DNA of 14,425 bases from Sphingomonadales bacterium (GTDB lineage Bacteria > Pseudomonadota > Alphaproteobacteria > Sphingomonadales > Sphingomonadaceae), in NCBI GenBank assembly GCA_020200935.1, contig JAIVHR010000025.1, positions 1-14,425 of the forward strand, written 5' to 3'. Each line of letters starts with the position of its first letter. Position 1 is the first letter of the stretch. The notes under the pieces are model-generated. The model had not been told where the DNA came from. It did not search any database and saw nothing but the letters and a program-made list of their open reading frames with translations. This document shows positions 1,319 through 10,143 of this stretch, piece by piece. Position numbers and translations under genes: made by a program.

Positions 1319-2310
1319 CCAGCGCCCTCATAGGCCTCGACGATCCGGCCGACGATCGGATGGCGGACGACGTCGCCGGTTCCGAAGCGGATCGTGGCGA
1401 TGCTTTCGAGACCTTCAAGCCGCGAGACGGCGTCGGCAAGACCGCTGACGCCTTCCCCCGGTAGATCGATCTGCTTGGGATCGCCGCAGACCACCATCCG
1501 GCTGTTCTCGCCGAAGCGGGTCAGGAACATCTTCATCTGCGCCGCGGTCGTGTTCTGCGCCTCGTCGAGGATGACGAAAGCATCGGCGAGCGTTCGTCCG
1601 CGCATGAAGGCGATCGGCGCGATCTCGATTTCGCCGTTTGCGATCCGCCGCTCGACCTGCTCGATCGGCAGCATGTCGTAGAGGGCGTCGTAAAGCGGGC
1701 GCAGATAGGGATCGACCTTTTCGCGCATGTCGCCGGGGAGAAAGCCCAACCGTTCGCCGGCCTCGACCGCCGGGCGCGACAGGATCAGCCGATCGACCGA
1801 TCCGGTAATCAGCTGATGAACGGCCTGCGCCACGGCGAGATAGGTCTTGCCGGTCCCGGCCGGGCCCAAGGCGAAGATCAGCTCGTCGCGCGCCAGCGCT
1901 TCCATATAGCGCGTCTGGGTGACCGAGCGCGGGACGATGGTCTTCTTGCGCGTCCGGATCATCACCTTGGGCGGTTCGGCGACTTCCCTGTGGATCAGGC
2001 CGTCGAGCACCGGTTCGGCCGACATTGCGATGATCGCCTCGACCGCGCCCGAATCGATCTCCTGGCCCTGGGCGATGCGGTTATAGAGGCCCTTCAGCAC
2101 ATCGCGAGCGCGGGCCGCGCTTTCGGCATCGCCCTCGATCGAGATCTTGTTGCCGCGCGCGGCGATATAGACGCCGAGCCGGTTCTCGATCGCCACCAGA
2201 TTCTGGTCATACTCGCCGAATAGCGGGCCGAGCAGCTGGGCGTTGTCGAATTCCAGATCGACGCGGACCTTCTGGCCGGCGAGCTTCTGGGCGGATTTTT
2301 TGGCGCTCAA
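1315..2310 (-). CDS. phoH: PhoH family ATPase (PhoH-like protein), TTG start
   Basis: The protein is 331 residues if it starts at the TTG at 2310-2308, beginning (M)[20 protein letters not shown]. That TTG overlaps the miaB stop (TGA, 2309-2307) and has a strong Shine-Dalgarno GGGAGG (2320-2315) four bases upstream, which decides the start. The same frame stays open far upstream to 4311, but that part is only a shadow of miaB. Residues about 15-80 look like the KH-like N-terminal domain of PhoH. The P-loop NTPase follows: Walker A GPAGTGKT at 149-156, and Walker B VILDEAQN at 246-253 followed by a glutamine-rich sensor stretch ([14 protein letters not shown]). PhoH proteins are predicted RNA-linked ATPases and functional partners of YbeY. 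The molecular substrate is not firmly known. Confidence 0.95.
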
Positions 2311-4217
2311 GCGGCCTCCCTTTCCGGCAGCGCGCCGCCGAGGCTGTTCGGGCCGGCGCTGACGATATCGACCTCGACCAGCGAACCGATCGGCGCATCG
2401 GTCTCGACATGCACCGATTGCAGCCAGGGCGACTTGCCGATCCGCTGGCCGGGTTTCTTGCCATCGCGCTCGAGCAGCAGGGTCGTCCGCCGCCCGACGC
2501 TCGCCCCGTTGAACGCCTGCTGCTGTTTGTTGAGCAAACCCTGCAGCCGCTGGAGCCGTTCGTGGGCGACTTGCGGCGCGACGAATGCGTCGTCCATCTC
2601 GGCTGCCGGGGTGCCGGGGCGCGGGCTGTATTTGAAGGAGAAGGCCTGGGCGTAGTTCGCCGCGCGAACGATATCGAGCGTCGCCTCGAAATCCGCATCG
2701 CTCTCGCCCGGGAAACCGACGATGAAGTCTCCCGAGATCGCGATGTCGGGCCGCGCCGCGCGCACCCGTTCGAGGGTCGCGAGATAGCTTTCGATGGTGT
2801 GGCTGCGGTTCATCGATTTGAGGATCGCATCGGAGCCCGATTGCACGGGAAGATGCAGATAGGGCATCAGCTTGCCGACCTCGGCATGCGCGGCGATCAG
2901 CCCCTCCGTCATGTCGTTGGGATGGCTCGTCGTGTAGCGGATGCGGGCGAGGCCCTCGATCGCGTCGAGCGCGCGGATCAGGCCGTCGAGCCCCTGTGTG
3001 CAGCCCTGACCGTCTTCGCCGGCCCAGGCATTCACATTCTGGCCGAGCAGCGTGATCTCCTTCGCCCCGGCATCGACGAGCGCCTGGGCCTCGTCGAGGA
3101 TCGCGTTCCAGGGCCGGGAGACCTCGGCGCCGCGCGTATAGGGGACGACGCAATAGGTGCAGAATTTGTCGCAGCCTTCCTGAACGGTCAAGAAGGCGCT
3201 CGGCGCCTGCTTCGCGCGCTTCGGCAGCGCGCCGAATTTGGAGGCGACCGGCATGTCGGTATCGAGTGCGGTCTCGCCCTTGGTCGCCTTGGCGACCAGT
3301 TCGGGCAGATGGTGATAGGCCTGCGGACCGACGACGATATCGACTTCGCGCGCCCGGCGCGGAATTTCGGCGCCTTCGGCCTGGGCGACGCAGCCGGCGA
3401 CCGCGATCATCGGCTTGTCGTTGCCTGCGCGCTTGGCGATCCGGCCGATATCCGAATAGGCCTTCTCGGCGGCCTTTTCGCGGATATGGCAGGTATTGAG
3501 CACGACCAGATCCGCCGTGTCGGCATCGGCCGCGCGGGTCAGTCCCTTGTCCTCTAGAAGTTCGGCCATCCGCCGGCAGAGCACGCGCCAGGCATTGCGG
3601 GTCACGGTTTCTTCTCCGATCCAGGCGATTTCCGGACCTTCGCCGCAGAAATCCAGCAGCACCGGCTGGACCTGCATCGGCCGCGGGGGCGGAGAAAGCA
3701 CCGCGAACAGGGTGGGCTTGAAAGGCCGGAGGCTGCATCCGTCGGTCGTCGTGCCCTCGGGAAAGATCGTCACCGGCTGGTGATCGTGCAGCGCTTCTTT
3801 CAGCTGCGCGATCTGCTCGGCCACGCCGAGCCGATCGGCGCGCGACACGAAGATCGTGTGGTTGAGCTTGGCCAACCATCCGACCACCGGCCATTTGGCG
3901 ATGCCGTCCTGCGCCACATAGGCGGTATTGGTCGCGCTGCCGAGGATCAGTATGTCGAGCCAGCTCAGATGATTGGCGACATAAAAAACGTTCTCCTTGA
4001 GACGAATGCCCTCCTTGGCGATCCGCAAATTGCAGATCCAGGCGGCGCCGACGAGGAAGCGCTGCGGCCAGGGCGAAATCGCGCCGAACAGCCGCCAGAG
4101 ATAATGGAAGGGAAGCAGGAGCAGCAGCAAGAGGACCAGCGCCAGAAGCCGGAAAAGAAAACGCAATGGGCCGAGCACGCCGACCGGCGGGTGGCGTTCC
4201 GAATGTCCGCCACTCAC
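2307..4217 (-). CDS. miaB: Acyltransferase-MiaB fusion ORF: MiaB lacks its first Fe-S cysteine
   Basis: One open frame of 636 codons runs from a GTG at 4217 (overlapping the upstream stop as GTGA) to the TGA at 2307. Residues 217-636 are MiaB, the radical-SAM enzyme that methylthiolates i6A37 of tRNA. Seen in order: the second and third N-domain cysteines ([10 protein letters not shown] and [11 protein letters not shown]), the radical-SAM CxxxCxxC ([10 protein letters not shown]), the core ([36 protein letters not shown]) and a C-terminal TRAM domain ending in SAGPNSLGG. The normal MiaB N-terminus, about 20-25 residues with the first cluster cysteine (SFGCQMN-type), is absent. In its place residue 216 of an acyltransferase joins directly to MAELLEDKG. 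An internal ATG at 3569 could give a 420-residue MiaB without the first cysteine. Activity is therefore doubtful. The reading frame is preserved throughout. Confidence 0.85.
2315..2320 (-). promoter_or_regulatory. Shine-Dalgarno of phoH
   Basis: On the minus strand the hexamer is GGGAGG, with four bases before the TTG start. It lies inside the last codons of miaB, so phoH translation probably depends on ribosomes finishing miaB. This site is the main argument for the non-ATG start. Confidence 0.75.
3570..4217 (-). other. PlsC-type lysophospholipid acyltransferase module of the fusion ORF, C-terminus missing
   Basis: These are residues 1-216 of the fused frame. A hydrophobic anchor ([22 protein letters not shown]) is followed by the acyltransferase block I NHLSWLD (H-x4-D) and block [12 protein letters not shown], then [10 protein letters not shown] and [14 protein letters not shown]. 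These are hallmarks of 1-acyl-sn-glycerol-3-phosphate acyltransferases or related lyso-lipid acyltransferases at the inner membrane. In this family about 50 further residues normally follow the RVL stretch, ending in an 'RK-alA' helix; here MiaB starts instead. The catalytic motifs are present, so this half might still work. The acyl donor and lipid acceptor cannot be told from sequence. It is a paralogue of the damaged acyltransferase immediately upstream. Confidence 0.85.
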
Positions 4218-4612
4218 GCCGGTACGCTGGCCGGTTCGCGGCCGAGCGCCCGGGCCACCGAAATCTCGGATTTGTAGGCGAGTTCCTTGCGATGGTCATC
4301 GGGTCCGGCAAAAACCTGTGCTCCTGCGGCGCGGCGGTCCTCGGCGGTGATATAGATCGTGCCGACCATCGTCGCGAGGCGGCCGGCGACGGGCCAGTTG
4401 CGCACGCTGTCCTTGGAGACGAAGGAAGCGCCGGTCGCGCCGCCGACCAGCAGGATATCGAGCCAGCTCAAATGATTGCTGGCGAACAATGCCGCACCTT
4501 CGACACGCTCTCCGATGATCCGGGCTCGCACGCCGAGCGCTCGCGCGCACCAGCCGAGAAAGCGCCGTGGCCAGGGCGAATGGCGGCCGAACACCCGCCA
4601 CAGCAAATGCAT
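4214..4612 (-). pseudogene. Damaged PlsC-type acyltransferase (internal in-frame loss, poor start)
   Basis: The 132-codon frame from ATG 4612 has RVFGRHSPWPRRFLG, the H-x4-D block (SNHLSWLD, H47-D52) and VGTIYITAEDRRAAGAQ, all typical of the first half of PlsC-type acyltransferases. It then jumps at about residue 99 (near 4317) to [18 protein letters not shown], which resembles the C-terminal end of the same family, and stops. The FPEGT block and about 100 residues expected between them are missing. The in-frame codons between fur and 4612 still encode a hydrophobic anchor (FFWLFGLILFCVP), but no ATG, GTG or TTG lies in that stretch back to fur, so the natural start also seems lost. The frame is still open, so a short product is possible, but without block III it should not be an active acyltransferase. 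It sits directly after fur and overlaps the next gene as GTGA. Confidence 0.75.
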
Positions 4613-7799: not shown

Positions 7800-7805
7800 G
7801 GAATC

Positions 7806-8579
7806 ATGAAAAACTGGAAAAGCCTTGCAGCGGCCCTTTTGCTGCTGTCGATGCCGGCTGTCGTGCAGGCCGAGCCTGCGGCCGTCGAAGCGGCGGTGGC
7901 CAATGCCGACCGATCCGAGCCCGACACGGCGATGGATGAGAGCCGGCAGCCCGCAGCCGTGCTCCAGTTTCTCGGCCTCGAAGAGGGGGACCGGGTGCTC
8001 GATGTGATGGCGGGCGGCGGCTATTATACCGAGCTGATGGCGCGCGCCGTGGGTCCGGAGGGGCATGTCGTCGGCCAGAACCCGCCAGGCGTCGTCGAAG
8101 CCTATAGCCTGGGGCCGGTGTTCGAACGGCGCGGCTATGGCGCCGAAAGACTGCCGAATGCGGAACGGCTGGATGTCGAATTTGCCGATGCCGCTTTCGA
8201 GCCGAACAGCTTCGATTTCGCGCTGTTCCATATGGTGCTGCACGATCTGTGGCATGAAAACCCGCCCGCCTTGCCTCGCACCGAACCGGCCGATTTCCTC
8301 GCCGCGCTCTATACCGGAATGAAGCCCGGCGGGATCGTCGGCGTGGTCGATCATGTCGGCACCGATGCCGCCGACCCGCGCGGCGAGGTGGGCCGGCTGC
8401 ATCGCATCGATCCGCAGGTGGTCCGCGCGGCGATGGAAGAAGCCGGCTTCGTGCACGAGGAAGAATCCGATTTGCTGCGCAATCCCGAGGACACGCATGA
8501 AGTGAATGTGTTCGACCCCGCGATCCGCGGCCGTACCGACCGCTTCGTCTACCGCTTCCGCAAGCCGCCGGAGGAATGA
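7806..8579 (+). CDS. Class I SAM-dependent methyltransferase (COG4798-like) with signal peptide
   Basis: The protein is 257 residues. Residues 1-22 look like a Sec signal peptide: MKNWK, a hydrophobic core AAALLLLSMPAVV, then VQA followed by EP as a likely cleavage site. The mature part has a methyltransferase motif I, RVLDVMAGGGYYTELMARAVG (about 63-83), an acidic segment FADAAFEPNSFDFALFHMVLHDLW, and MKPGGIVGVVDHVG. The family is annotated as 'predicted methyltransferase' and its substrate is unknown. An exported SAM enzyme is puzzling, because SAM is cytoplasmic. A conserved VDHVG and late RIDPQVVRAAMEEAGFVHEEESDLLRN fit the COG4798 pattern. It is alone on its strand and divergent from nfu. 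A weak hairpin follows 22 bp after its stop. Confidence 0.88.
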   Translation: MKNWKSLAAALLLLSMPAVVQAEPAAVEAAVANADRSEPDTAMDESRQPAAVLQFLGLEEGDRVLDVMAGGGYYTELMARAVGPEGHVVGQNPPGVVEAYSLGPVFERRGYGAERLPNAERLDVEFADAAFEPNSFDFALFHMVLHDLWHENPPALPRTEPADFLAALYTGMKPGGIVGVVDHVGTDAADPRGEVGRLHRIDPQVVRAAMEEAGFVHEEESDLLRNPEDTHEVNVFDPAIRGRTDRFVYRFRKPPEE

Positions 8580-8601
8580 GCCCGTTGATATAATTTGAGT
8601 C

Positions 8602-8624
8602 GGGCGCGAAATAAAAATGCGCCT
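8602..8624 (+). terminator. Weak candidate terminator after the methyltransferase gene
   Basis: GGGCGC (8602-8607) can pair with GCGCCT (8619-8624), including one G-U pair, around an 11-nt A-rich loop. The pyrimidine-rich stretch TCGCTCTTTCTCTTTT follows. The stem is short and the loop long, so this is a weak call. Confidence 0.35.
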
Positions 8625-8644
8625 CGCTCTTTCTCTTTTAACGA

Positions 8645-8838
8645 TTAACCCCTATCTGGGGCCTTGACCGAATGAAGGGCCGGCATATCCGGCCAAACCC
8701 GGTGCGTGAATGCCCGATTGGGGCGACCGGTTTTCGTTAGGCATTTTTTCTCGAGGCTTCCTGATCACGCGGGTCGTTTCATAACCCGCTCTCCGTGCGC
8801 CAATTCGGCGCGCGGCGATATTTTCTGGAAGTTTACCC
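8645..8838 (+). promoter_or_regulatory. Structured leader of rhlE with possible attenuator
   Basis: The 259 bp between the methyltransferase stop and rhlE contain no gene but a row of hairpins. They are: 8649-8652/8658-8661 (CCCC/GGGG); 8678-8683/8689-8694 (GGCCGG/CCGGCC); 8695-8703/8726-8734 (8 pairs, one mismatch), enclosing 8712-8715/8721-8724; 8769-8774/8784-8789 (GCGGGT/ACCCGC); and 8797-8801/8807-8811 (GCGCC/GGCGC). A competing stem, 8709-8714/8740-8745 (AATGCC/GGCATT), runs straight into six T at 8744-8749 and cannot form together with the nested 8712-8724 hairpin. The layout resembles an attenuator or thermosensor. The transcription start is not known, and a small RNA ending near 8749 is an alternative. 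Confidence 0.5.
8709..8749 (+). terminator. Terminator-like stem and U-tract inside the rhlE leader
   Basis: AATGCC (8709-8714) pairs with GGCATT (8740-8745). The stem can extend by CGA/TCG (8715-8717/8734-8736) past a 3-nt bulge, and six T follow at 8744-8749. It lies 90 bp upstream of the rhlE ATG. The stem is only moderate and its loop is large, so its strength is uncertain. Confidence 0.45.
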
Positions 8839-10143
8839 ATGACTCAATTTTCCGATCTCGGCCTCGCCGAGCCCTTGTTGCGTGCTCTTGCCGCCAAGGA
8901 TTACGGCGCCCCGACGCCGATCCAGGCGCGGGCGATTCCCGTTCTGCTCGAAGGCCGCGATCTGTGCGGCATCGCCCAGACGGGCACCGGCAAGACCGCT
9001 GCTTTCGCGCTGCCTTCGCTCCATTATCTCGCCGAGAATCCTGTGGCGCGGCCGCACAGAGCCTGCCGCATGCTCATCCTCTCGCCGACCCGCGAGCTGG
9101 CCAGCCAGATCGCGGATAATTTCCGTCTCTATGCGAAATATCTCAATCTGTCGGTGACGACGGTGTTCGGCGGGGTTCCCGTCGGCAAGCAGAAGCGCCG
9201 GCTCGAAGGCGGCGTCGACATTCTCGTCGCCACGCCCGGACGGCTGCTCGATCTCGTCGACCAGCGCGCGCTCAATCTCGACAGGACCGAGATCTTCGTC
9301 CTCGACGAGGCCGACCAGATGCTTGATCTCGGTTTCATCCACGCGCTTAAGCGGATCGAGAAGCTGTTGCCGAACAAACGCCAGAGCCTGTTCTTCTCGG
9401 CCACCATGCCGCAGAAGATCCGCTCGCTCGCGGGCGGCTTTCTCGACGATCCGGTCGAGATTTCGGTTGCCCCGCAGGCGACGACCGTCGAGCGCGTCGA
9501 CCAGTTCGTGACTTTCGTCGAGCAGCGCGAAAAGCAGGCGCTGCTGACGCTGACCTTGCGCGATCAGGATATCGAGCGCGCGCTGATCTTCAGCCGCACC
9601 AAGCATGGCGCCGACCGCATCGTCCGCTTCCTCGAAGGAGCCGGTATCGGCGTCGCGGCGATTCACGGCAACAAGAGCCAGCCGCAGCGCGAGAAGGCGC
9701 TGGGTGCGTTTCGCGAGGGACGCATCCGCTATCTCGTCGCGACCGACATCGCCGCGCGCGGGATCGATATCCCGGCGGTCAGCCATGTCTTCAATTTCGA
9801 CATGCCCAATGTGCCCGAGCAATATGTCCACCGCATCGGCCGCACCGCGCGCGCCGGCGCCAGCGGTATCGCGGTCAGCTTCATCAACAATGACGACGAG
9901 CGCGCTTATCTCAAGGATATCGAACGGCTGACCGGAGTCCGGCTCGAAAAGAAGCCGTTACCGGAAGGCTTCGTCGAAGCGGCCGCGAAGCTTCCCAAGG
10001 CTGCACCCAAGCGCCGCGGCGAGAGCCAGGAGCACGGCCGTCCGCGCGGCGGCCAGGGTCGTCCCGGTGGCAACAATCGCCGTCGGCGGTCCGGGAACCG
10101 ATCGGTCGGTGCCCACAAGGGCTCCGTTCGCCGCGCGGGCTAA
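8839..10143 (+). CDS. rhlE: DEAD-box ATP-dependent RNA helicase, RhlE type
   Basis: The protein is 434 residues from the ATG at 8839, with GGAAG (8827-8831) seven bases upstream. All superfamily 2 DEAD-box motifs are present: Q motif F4 to PTPIQ, Walker A AQTGTGKT (46-53), PTREL (83-87), TPGR (132-135), DEAD (156-159), SAT (187-189), then VATDIAARGID (300-310) and HRIGRTARAG (331-340). The last 50 residues are a basic, Arg/Gly-rich disordered tail (RPRGGQGRPGGNNRRRR), as in RhlE proteins. These tails add nonspecific RNA binding. Such enzymes remodel RNA in ribosome assembly and decay and are often cold-induced. The long structured leader suggests post-transcriptional control. The stop TAA overlaps the convergent stop of the next gene. 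Confidence 0.95.
   Translation: MTQFSDLGLAEPLLRALAAKDYGAPTPIQARAIPVLLEGRDLCGIAQTGTGKTAAFALPSLHYLAENPVARPHRACRMLILSPTRELASQIADNFRLYAKYLNLSVTTVFGGVPVGKQKRRLEGGVDILVATPGRLLDLVDQRALNLDRTEIFVLDEADQMLDLGFIHALKRIEKLLPNKRQSLFFSATMPQKIRSLAGGFLDDPVEISVAPQATTVERVDQFVTFVEQREKQALLTLTLRDQDIERALIFSRTKHGADRIVRFLEGAGIGVAAIHGNKSQPQREKALGAFREGRIRYLVATDIAARGIDIPAVSHVFNFDMPNVPEQYVHRIGRTARAGASGIAVSFINNDDERAYLKDIERLTGVRLEKKPLPEGFVEAAAKLPKAAPKRRGESQEHGRPRGGQGRPGGNNRRRRSGNRSVGAHKGSVRRAG

Follow-up and report, generated by a model that had tools for sequence, protein, structure and literature searches.

A predicted kissing-fold RNA, supported by covariation, in the leaders of alphaproteobacterial rhlE genes

The rhlE locus

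The window, that is, the whole stretch of 14,425 nucleotides analysed here, comes from the fragmented genome of a Sphingomonadales bacterium (G000; 343 contigs, 66% complete). Its forward strand carries rhlE at 8839..10143, which encodes a DEAD-box RNA helicase of 434 amino acids. The best NCBIfam model for this protein is PRK10590.1 RhlE, with 462 bits, under the equivalog cut-off of 743, and its closest named relatives belong to Parasphingopyxis (Sphingomonadales). The start codon at 8839 is ATG, and a Shine-Dalgarno-like GGAAG can be read from the letters at 8827..8831 on the same strand. Among the 155 related leaders defined below, alignment places the RhlE start at TTG in 65 and at ATG in 42, and many of the other 48 placements are alignment errors; weak start codons seem to be common in rhlE.

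Elsewhere in the window, a reading frame on the reverse strand (2307-4217) looks like the start of an acyltransferase (PlsC-like) that continues in frame into a MiaB-like protein lacking its normal N-terminal part, and a second, short PlsC-like frame adjoins it at 4214-4612. Both frames were named from their letters, and the PlsC-like and MiaB-like identities are presumed. The fusion could reflect either a deletion or a join made during assembly of the fragmented genome.

The complete leader of rhlE (8645-8838) is more stably folded than its shuffled versions (z -3.06, reached by 0 of 200). The stability of the sub-region 8676-8752, in which a switch had been proposed, is no better than that of shuffles (z -0.32, 70 of 200). 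Two candidate promoters were read by eye on the forward strand: CTTTCT-N17-CTATCT at 8629..8657, with a start near 8664, and the poorly spaced TTGACC-N14-CATATC at 8664-8689, with a start near 8696. A strict sigma-70 scan of 7800-9300 returned no promoter. Of the 155 related leaders, 65 have a promoter-like pair upstream of GCGTGA, compared with 12 in the reversed control. Thus, a transcription start downstream of 8750, which would be at odds with the leader folds first proposed, is unlikely.

Predicted architecture of the leader RNA

The leader was compared with those belonging to 80 RhlE relatives in named genomes, to 8 more genomes of the genus (two of which are the records L002 and L023 already in the set), to relatives at the order and class levels, and to two lineages selected for their deviating letters; all were picked as near relatives of the window RhlE. 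A motif is visible by eye in many of these leaders: GCGTGA bulges out close to the base of a hairpin, and TCACGC precedes GGG further downstream.

The original prediction had described a nested fold (8695-8703/8726-8734 around 8712-8715/8721-8724) and a stem competing with it, and all of the letters and arms that it named are in place. The nested fold is conserved. It forms the first arm of the element (8699..8730, forward strand), in which P1 (8699-8703/8726-8730), with a 5' bulge, encloses P2 (8711-8715/8721-8725) at -14.7 kcal/mol, or -17.1 kcal/mol when the foot of P1 is extended to 8695/8734. P1 reads CCGGU/ACCGG in the window and CCGGC/GCCGG, UCGGC/GCCGA or UCGGC/GCCGG in relatives from the genus. 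The P1/P2 hairpin is kept, with compensatory changes, in the rhlE leaders of Sphingomonadales, Caulobacterales, Hyphomicrobiales and others.

What the original prediction missed is a helix that interleaves with this hairpin, and a further hairpin around the 3' strand of that helix. The bulged GCGUGA at 8704..8709 (forward strand), for which relatives show compensatory variants, is the 5' strand of a predicted kissing or pseudoknot helix, and UCACGC at 8765..8770 (forward strand), its exact complement, is the 3' strand. UCACGC stands in the loop of the hairpin P3' (8754..8779, forward strand), which was read from the letters and covaries in relatives. In the window itself P3' is degenerate, with C8760-C8761/G8771-G8772, an internal loop and A8754-C8757/G8776-U8779, and its probability in the pseudoknot-free model is 0.00. 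Over the 155 leaders, the P3' stem score is 15.0 within leaders compared with 12.6 +/- 0.25 when arms are exchanged between leaders (reached in 0 of 300 exchanges), a difference inflated by relatedness; for the leader L144, the exact GCGTGA/TCACGC pair was used in this scoring in place of a misplaced candidate. P3' covaries in the two lineages f141 and f59. In Sphingomonadales, where duplicates were removed from 48 leaders to leave 36, it is weak, shows modest covariation and is split by an internal loop into two short stems. Since a second covarying hairpin presents UCACGC in its loop in relatives, the core is best described as a bulge-loop kissing fold: two predicted stem-loops, P1/P2 with the bulged GCGUGA and P3' with the UCACGC loop, would be joined by a kissing helix of 6 bp.

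Downstream of the kissing core, a predicted G+C-rich hairpin, P4 (8793..8815, forward strand; 8793-8801/8807-8815), would be followed by the ribosome-binding site. The equivalent region in 148 distinct leaders is stabler than shuffles (mean z -1.72; z < -1 in 100). The core is not favoured by thermodynamics alone (mean z -0.47 in 146 leaders), and thermodynamic folding of it is uninformative, P1 being unpredicted in the 8 genus relatives.

Another hairpin, P3 (8769-8774/8784-8789, spanning 8769..8789 of the forward strand), has a pair probability of 0.94-1.0 in the window. It shares the GGG strand with P3', and its formation precludes both P3' and the last two kissing pairs. Among 60 leaders, one P3 pair is U-A in 19, G-C in 14 and unpaired in 21, and the between-leader support for P3 is weaker (11.5 compared with 11.0 +/- 0.17; 0 of 100). 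Outside Sphingomonadales, P3 is weak, including in f141, which retains the core, and it was therefore dropped as a member of the universal core. Alternative folds thus remain part of the picture for Sphingomonadales, where the possible exclusive pair is P3' plus the kissing helix on one side and P3 on the other, in place of the pair named in the original prediction.

A pairing of CTTCC (8757-8761) with the Shine-Dalgarno GGAAG occurred in one minimum-energy fold and was rejected: its probability is 0.01-0.03 with the coding sequence added, and the position of CTTCC as the 5' arm of P3' in relatives also counts against it. Minimum-energy folds that include the coding sequence pair CGAGGCU of the leader (8752-8758) with GGCCUCG (8860-8866) in the first codons of rhlE, letters that may be conserved for protein reasons.

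Covariance models and covariation

A covariance model (R1) was built from 8 Sphingomonadales leaders, with the window and its genus left out. Over 100 sources (415,593 bases), R1 gave 61 matches with E up to 1. The sole match in the window was 8690-8793, with 22.7 bits and an E of 0.022 for the 415,593 bases. In the alignment of the 61 matches, 87.2% of the cells are standard pairs, 18 of the 22 pairs are changed on both sides, and the covariation is 0.288, compared with 0.097 in shuffled data and 0.03-0.05 when the partner strand is slid. The structure-fitted alignments comprise A4 and A5; the window is among the sequences of A5, on which a second model (R2) is based.

Because the R1-matched alignment was fitted to the structure, the test was repeated on plain MAFFT alignments of two lineages. 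The f141 alignment (A6) holds 13 of 19 leaders, 6 having been omitted as identical in the aligned stretch. Over its 31 pairs, 96.0% of the cells are paired, and 6 pairs are changed on both sides (one in P1, three in P2, two in P3' and none in the kissing helix). The f59 alignment (A7) holds 18 of the 19 leaders of genus g175, L212 being omitted; for P1 the count was restricted to its inner three pairs, as the outer part was inconsistently aligned. Here 98.3% of the cells over 23 pairs are paired, and 8 pairs are changed on both sides (two in inner P1, three in P2, two in P3' and one in the kissing helix). In each of the two lineages, four of five measures are higher than in all 500 shuffles or in all except one; the fifth, a count of further pair types, was attained in 16 of 500. 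Compensatory changes, the hallmark of a conserved cis-regulatory leader and the check proposed for the nested fold, are thus present in its helices among relatives. The predicted fold is supported by covariation in several lineages.

Variation of the kissing helix

Among 142 distinct leaders, GCGTGA and TCACGC are both exact in 94, another candidate pair is found in 29 and none is found in 19, one of which (L065) has no leader on its contig. This count takes the candidate of best complementarity in each leader, a few of which are misplaced, as in L144. Of the 19 genomes in genus g175, 15 have GCGTGT/ACACGC, 3 have GCGTGA/TCACGC and 1 has GCGTGG/TCACGC, while all 19 genomes of genus g305 have GCGTAG/CTACGC. 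GCGTGT with ACACGC is also found in the leader of Alsobacter (L077), and in Inquilinus and Hyphomonas the downstream strand is TCGCGC, which substitutes a G-U pair. When 59 RhlE rows are placed on a tree, the variants of Alsobacter, f141 and f59 fall in separate places, and the GCGTGA leader L320 stands apart from L309 and L317 inside f59, some forks of the tree being unresolved.

The complementarity also has exceptions. At least 9 leaders carry a mismatch at the sixth kissing pair, and only four pairs are left in L210, L211 and L213. The helix is invariant in f141, and a single pair of the six varies in f59. The 155-leader set comprises those of 193 leaders (142 and 51) with at least five of the six kissing pairs, so its counts are no test of the kissing helix. 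The case for this helix therefore rests on the letter variants among leaders and on the plain f59 alignment.

Distribution and gene specificity

In a search of 387 genomes of the class, R2 gave 26 matches with E up to 0.1, of which 19, including the window, are located at an RhlE gene. All 17 matches with E up to 0.0101 sit at RhlE genes. The search scored 9 prefiltered candidates per genome, so that these counts, and the 23 of 387 genomes with a hit, are lower bounds. Seven weak matches away from rhlE (L176, L177 and L180-L184; E 0.02-0.06) were taken as chance. In the genome of the window, R2 has one convincing match, the rhlE leader itself, at E 4e-6 with the window in the training set; the next match has an E of 3.2. 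The element thus keeps a steady position upstream of one gene family, as is expected of a conserved cis-regulatory leader.

The second RhlE-like gene (45-47% identical) of 8 genus members (L091-L098) gave no hit in a pattern scan of both strands and one weak match to R2 (13.9 bits, E 0.13). Of 60 more distant RhlE leaders, three match R2 with E < 0.01 (L232, L258 and L273). Among 16 leaders outside g175 and g305, six pairs can be formed in L306 and five in L303, and 14 have no candidate. An exact-pattern search of the family found 26 of 199 genomes, with few places resembling leaders, and was rejected as too strict because it misses the window itself. To judge from these comparisons of sequence, the leader element is associated with one RhlE lineage in several alphaproteobacterial orders.

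Some RhlE leaders have other features in common. Four leaders without the motif (L047, L049, L056 and L059; three Bosea and one Methylobacterium) share CCGGCGCNGTGGCTAGCGGTTCGCCGG, with one additional T in L059, and possibly have a different leader structure. The leaders L215, L217, L218, L219 and L298 have GGCGTTTCGTNAGAC in common; other RhlE lineages may have leader RNAs of their own.

No Rfam 15 family attained its gathering score anywhere in the window, and the single Rfam match among 10 loci of relatives was a tRNA outside the leader. A 2017 paper reportedly presented 224 candidate structured RNAs. No prior description of the element was found in the open-licence PMC papers searched or in Rfam 15, and the rhlE leader RNA appears to be uncatalogued.

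Possible function of the element

Work on the long leaders of cold-shock helicase genes appears to have proceeded mostly one gene at a time. The rhlE 5' UTR of Caulobacter crescentus is 186 nt long (Aguirre et al. 2017, PMC5472812). According to the passages of that paper drawn on here, constructs lose about 30-70% of their expression when the UTR is removed. Transcriptional fusions of rhlE are expressed more highly when the gene is mutated, and a UTR-bearing translational fusion responds to cold with an induction that is at least partly post-transcriptional. In cold cells RhlE becomes part of the degradosome (PMC5472812). As the passages do not say whether the rise in the mutant also affects fusions that lack the UTR, the UTR need not be the target of RhlE autoregulation. 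In C. vibrioides T5M6 (L071), which is not the published strain (one of six published primers matches within 3 substitutions), a length of 186 nt places the start near 284, with GCGTGA at 312, TCACGC at 377 and the start codon at 470. Both motif strands fall inside the 186-nt stretch; thus the published UTR, as those passages describe it, very probably holds a homologous element.

The reading favoured here, with slightly better than even confidence, is that the rhlE mRNA starts with a conserved cis-acting kissing-fold element, a member of a leader family that controls rhlE post-transcriptionally and through which RhlE may lower its own expression. That rhlE has a leader of regulatory type, as originally predicted, agrees with the covariation of the nested fold, with the partly post-transcriptional cold induction of Caulobacter rhlE and with the higher expression of its fusions in the mutant (PMC5472812). 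By analogy, the Caulobacter data suggest that the control exerted by the leader would be post-transcriptional. The kissing fold would protect the rhlE mRNA, keep it translatable, or both. RhlE would remodel its own leader RNA, upon which its own expression would fall, and cold would both favour the fold and occupy the helicase, so that rhlE would rise. In Sphingomonadales, P3, which uses the 3' kissing strand, could be the other state of this switch.

A more specific proposal, offered tentatively, is that the element acts as a gauge of free helicase activity. RhlE would then be the factor sensed: it would open the kissing helix and thereby adjust its own abundance, and when cold or misfolded RNA ties up the helicase, the knot would persist and rhlE would rise. 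If true, a family of helicase-sensing leader RNAs would extend over several alphaproteobacterial orders. The covariation-supported RNA architecture is now defined across several such orders and contains two six-letter strands whose pairing can be disrupted and then re-established, which makes it testable whether a DEAD-box helicase senses how its own mRNA is folded.

Leaders that bind a ligand or a protein typically show a knotted fold whose core hardly varies. The conserved fold might thus control rhlE by binding a factor other than RhlE, such as a small ligand, a ribosomal or cold-shock protein or a component of the degradosome, and the presence of Caulobacter RhlE in the degradosome in the cold would fit the last of these (PMC5472812). 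The restriction of strong class matches to rhlE, the one convincing copy in the genome and the lack of an Rfam match speak mildly against such a binder, which is regarded as rather unlikely.

An RNA-only thermosensor, in which temperature shifts the leader between P3' with the kissing helix and P3 and thereby alters translation, is improbable. The common GGG strand of P3 and P3' and the cold induction of the Caulobacter translational fusion with the UTR (PMC5472812) are consistent with it. Against it stand the weakness of P3 in f141, where the core is kept, a start region that is already about half open in the models (mean 0.53 in 155 leaders), and the score of the best Rfam thermosensor match in the window, ROSE_3 (RF02523), which has 12 bits compared with a gathering score of 43.

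The original prediction placed the switch in transcription, with the nested fold and an intrinsic terminator (8709..8749, forward strand) as exclusive folds and with temperature, ribosomes or RhlE deciding between read-through and termination. The competing stem (8709-8714/8740-8745), followed by six T, does exist in the letters. In the pseudoknot-free model of the window, its pair probability rises from 0.00 at 37 C and 0.05 at 25 C to 0.75-0.76 at 10 C, where that of P1 drops to 0.15-0.18, so that the ensemble moves from P1/P2 to the competing stem. However, the stem has only 6 bp around a loop of 25 nt, its energy is -3.9 kcal/mol, and it lies outside the conserved element. A stem of at least 6 pairs with a T-rich tail was found anywhere in only 22 of the 155 leaders, at scattered positions, and is thus not conserved. 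No matching temperature shift of P1/P2 appeared in the 8 genus relatives; this point is weak, as the same model misses their P1 at any temperature and the modelling computed P1/P2 and left out the competing stem itself. Termination in the cold would also oppose the cold induction seen in Caulobacter (PMC5472812). A terminator scan of 7800-9300 gave 2 sites compared with 1.5 expected, the proposed terminator not being among them; its loop limit of 8 excludes a loop of 25 nt, and the scan is thus no test of this terminator. A conserved U-tract hairpin alternative to an antiterminator, the mark of an intrinsic attenuator, was not found in the leader. Owing to its low stability and absence of conservation, the terminator switch at 8709-8749 was dropped, and switching between read-through and termination is very improbable. 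Release of the leader as a small RNA acting elsewhere, as is reportedly the case for the leader-derived UpsM of Rhodobacter, is hardly credible, since no conserved stem with a T tail follows the core and a 3' end near 8749 would split the conserved element in two.

Comparison with known systems

The Rfam cis-regulatory families, including ROSE_3, resemble the rhlE element as structured 5' leaders near a start codon, with no match at gathering score. The deaD gene of Escherichia coli, a gammaproteobacterium, is likewise a helicase gene with a long leader. The structure of the deaD 5' UTR is said to be remodelled by its own DEAD-box helicase, and autoregulation through this leader is reportedly Rho-dependent.

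In Caulobacter, the cspA and cspB leaders are also long 5' UTRs with post-transcriptional cold induction, but the 'upstream box' that they share is absent from the rhlE UTR according to the authors (data not shown; PMC5472812). The closest system is the Caulobacter rhlE UTR itself, a homologous leader upstream of a cold-induced RhlE, with the same element in L071. The published structure differs in being the minimum-energy fold of a single sequence, and the passages of the paper drawn on here describe no conserved motif, pseudoknot or comparative analysis of the rhlE UTR (PMC5472812). The kissing fold predicted from many leaders offers a structural basis for the published Caulobacter rhlE UTR data, at least for those given in these passages (PMC5472812).
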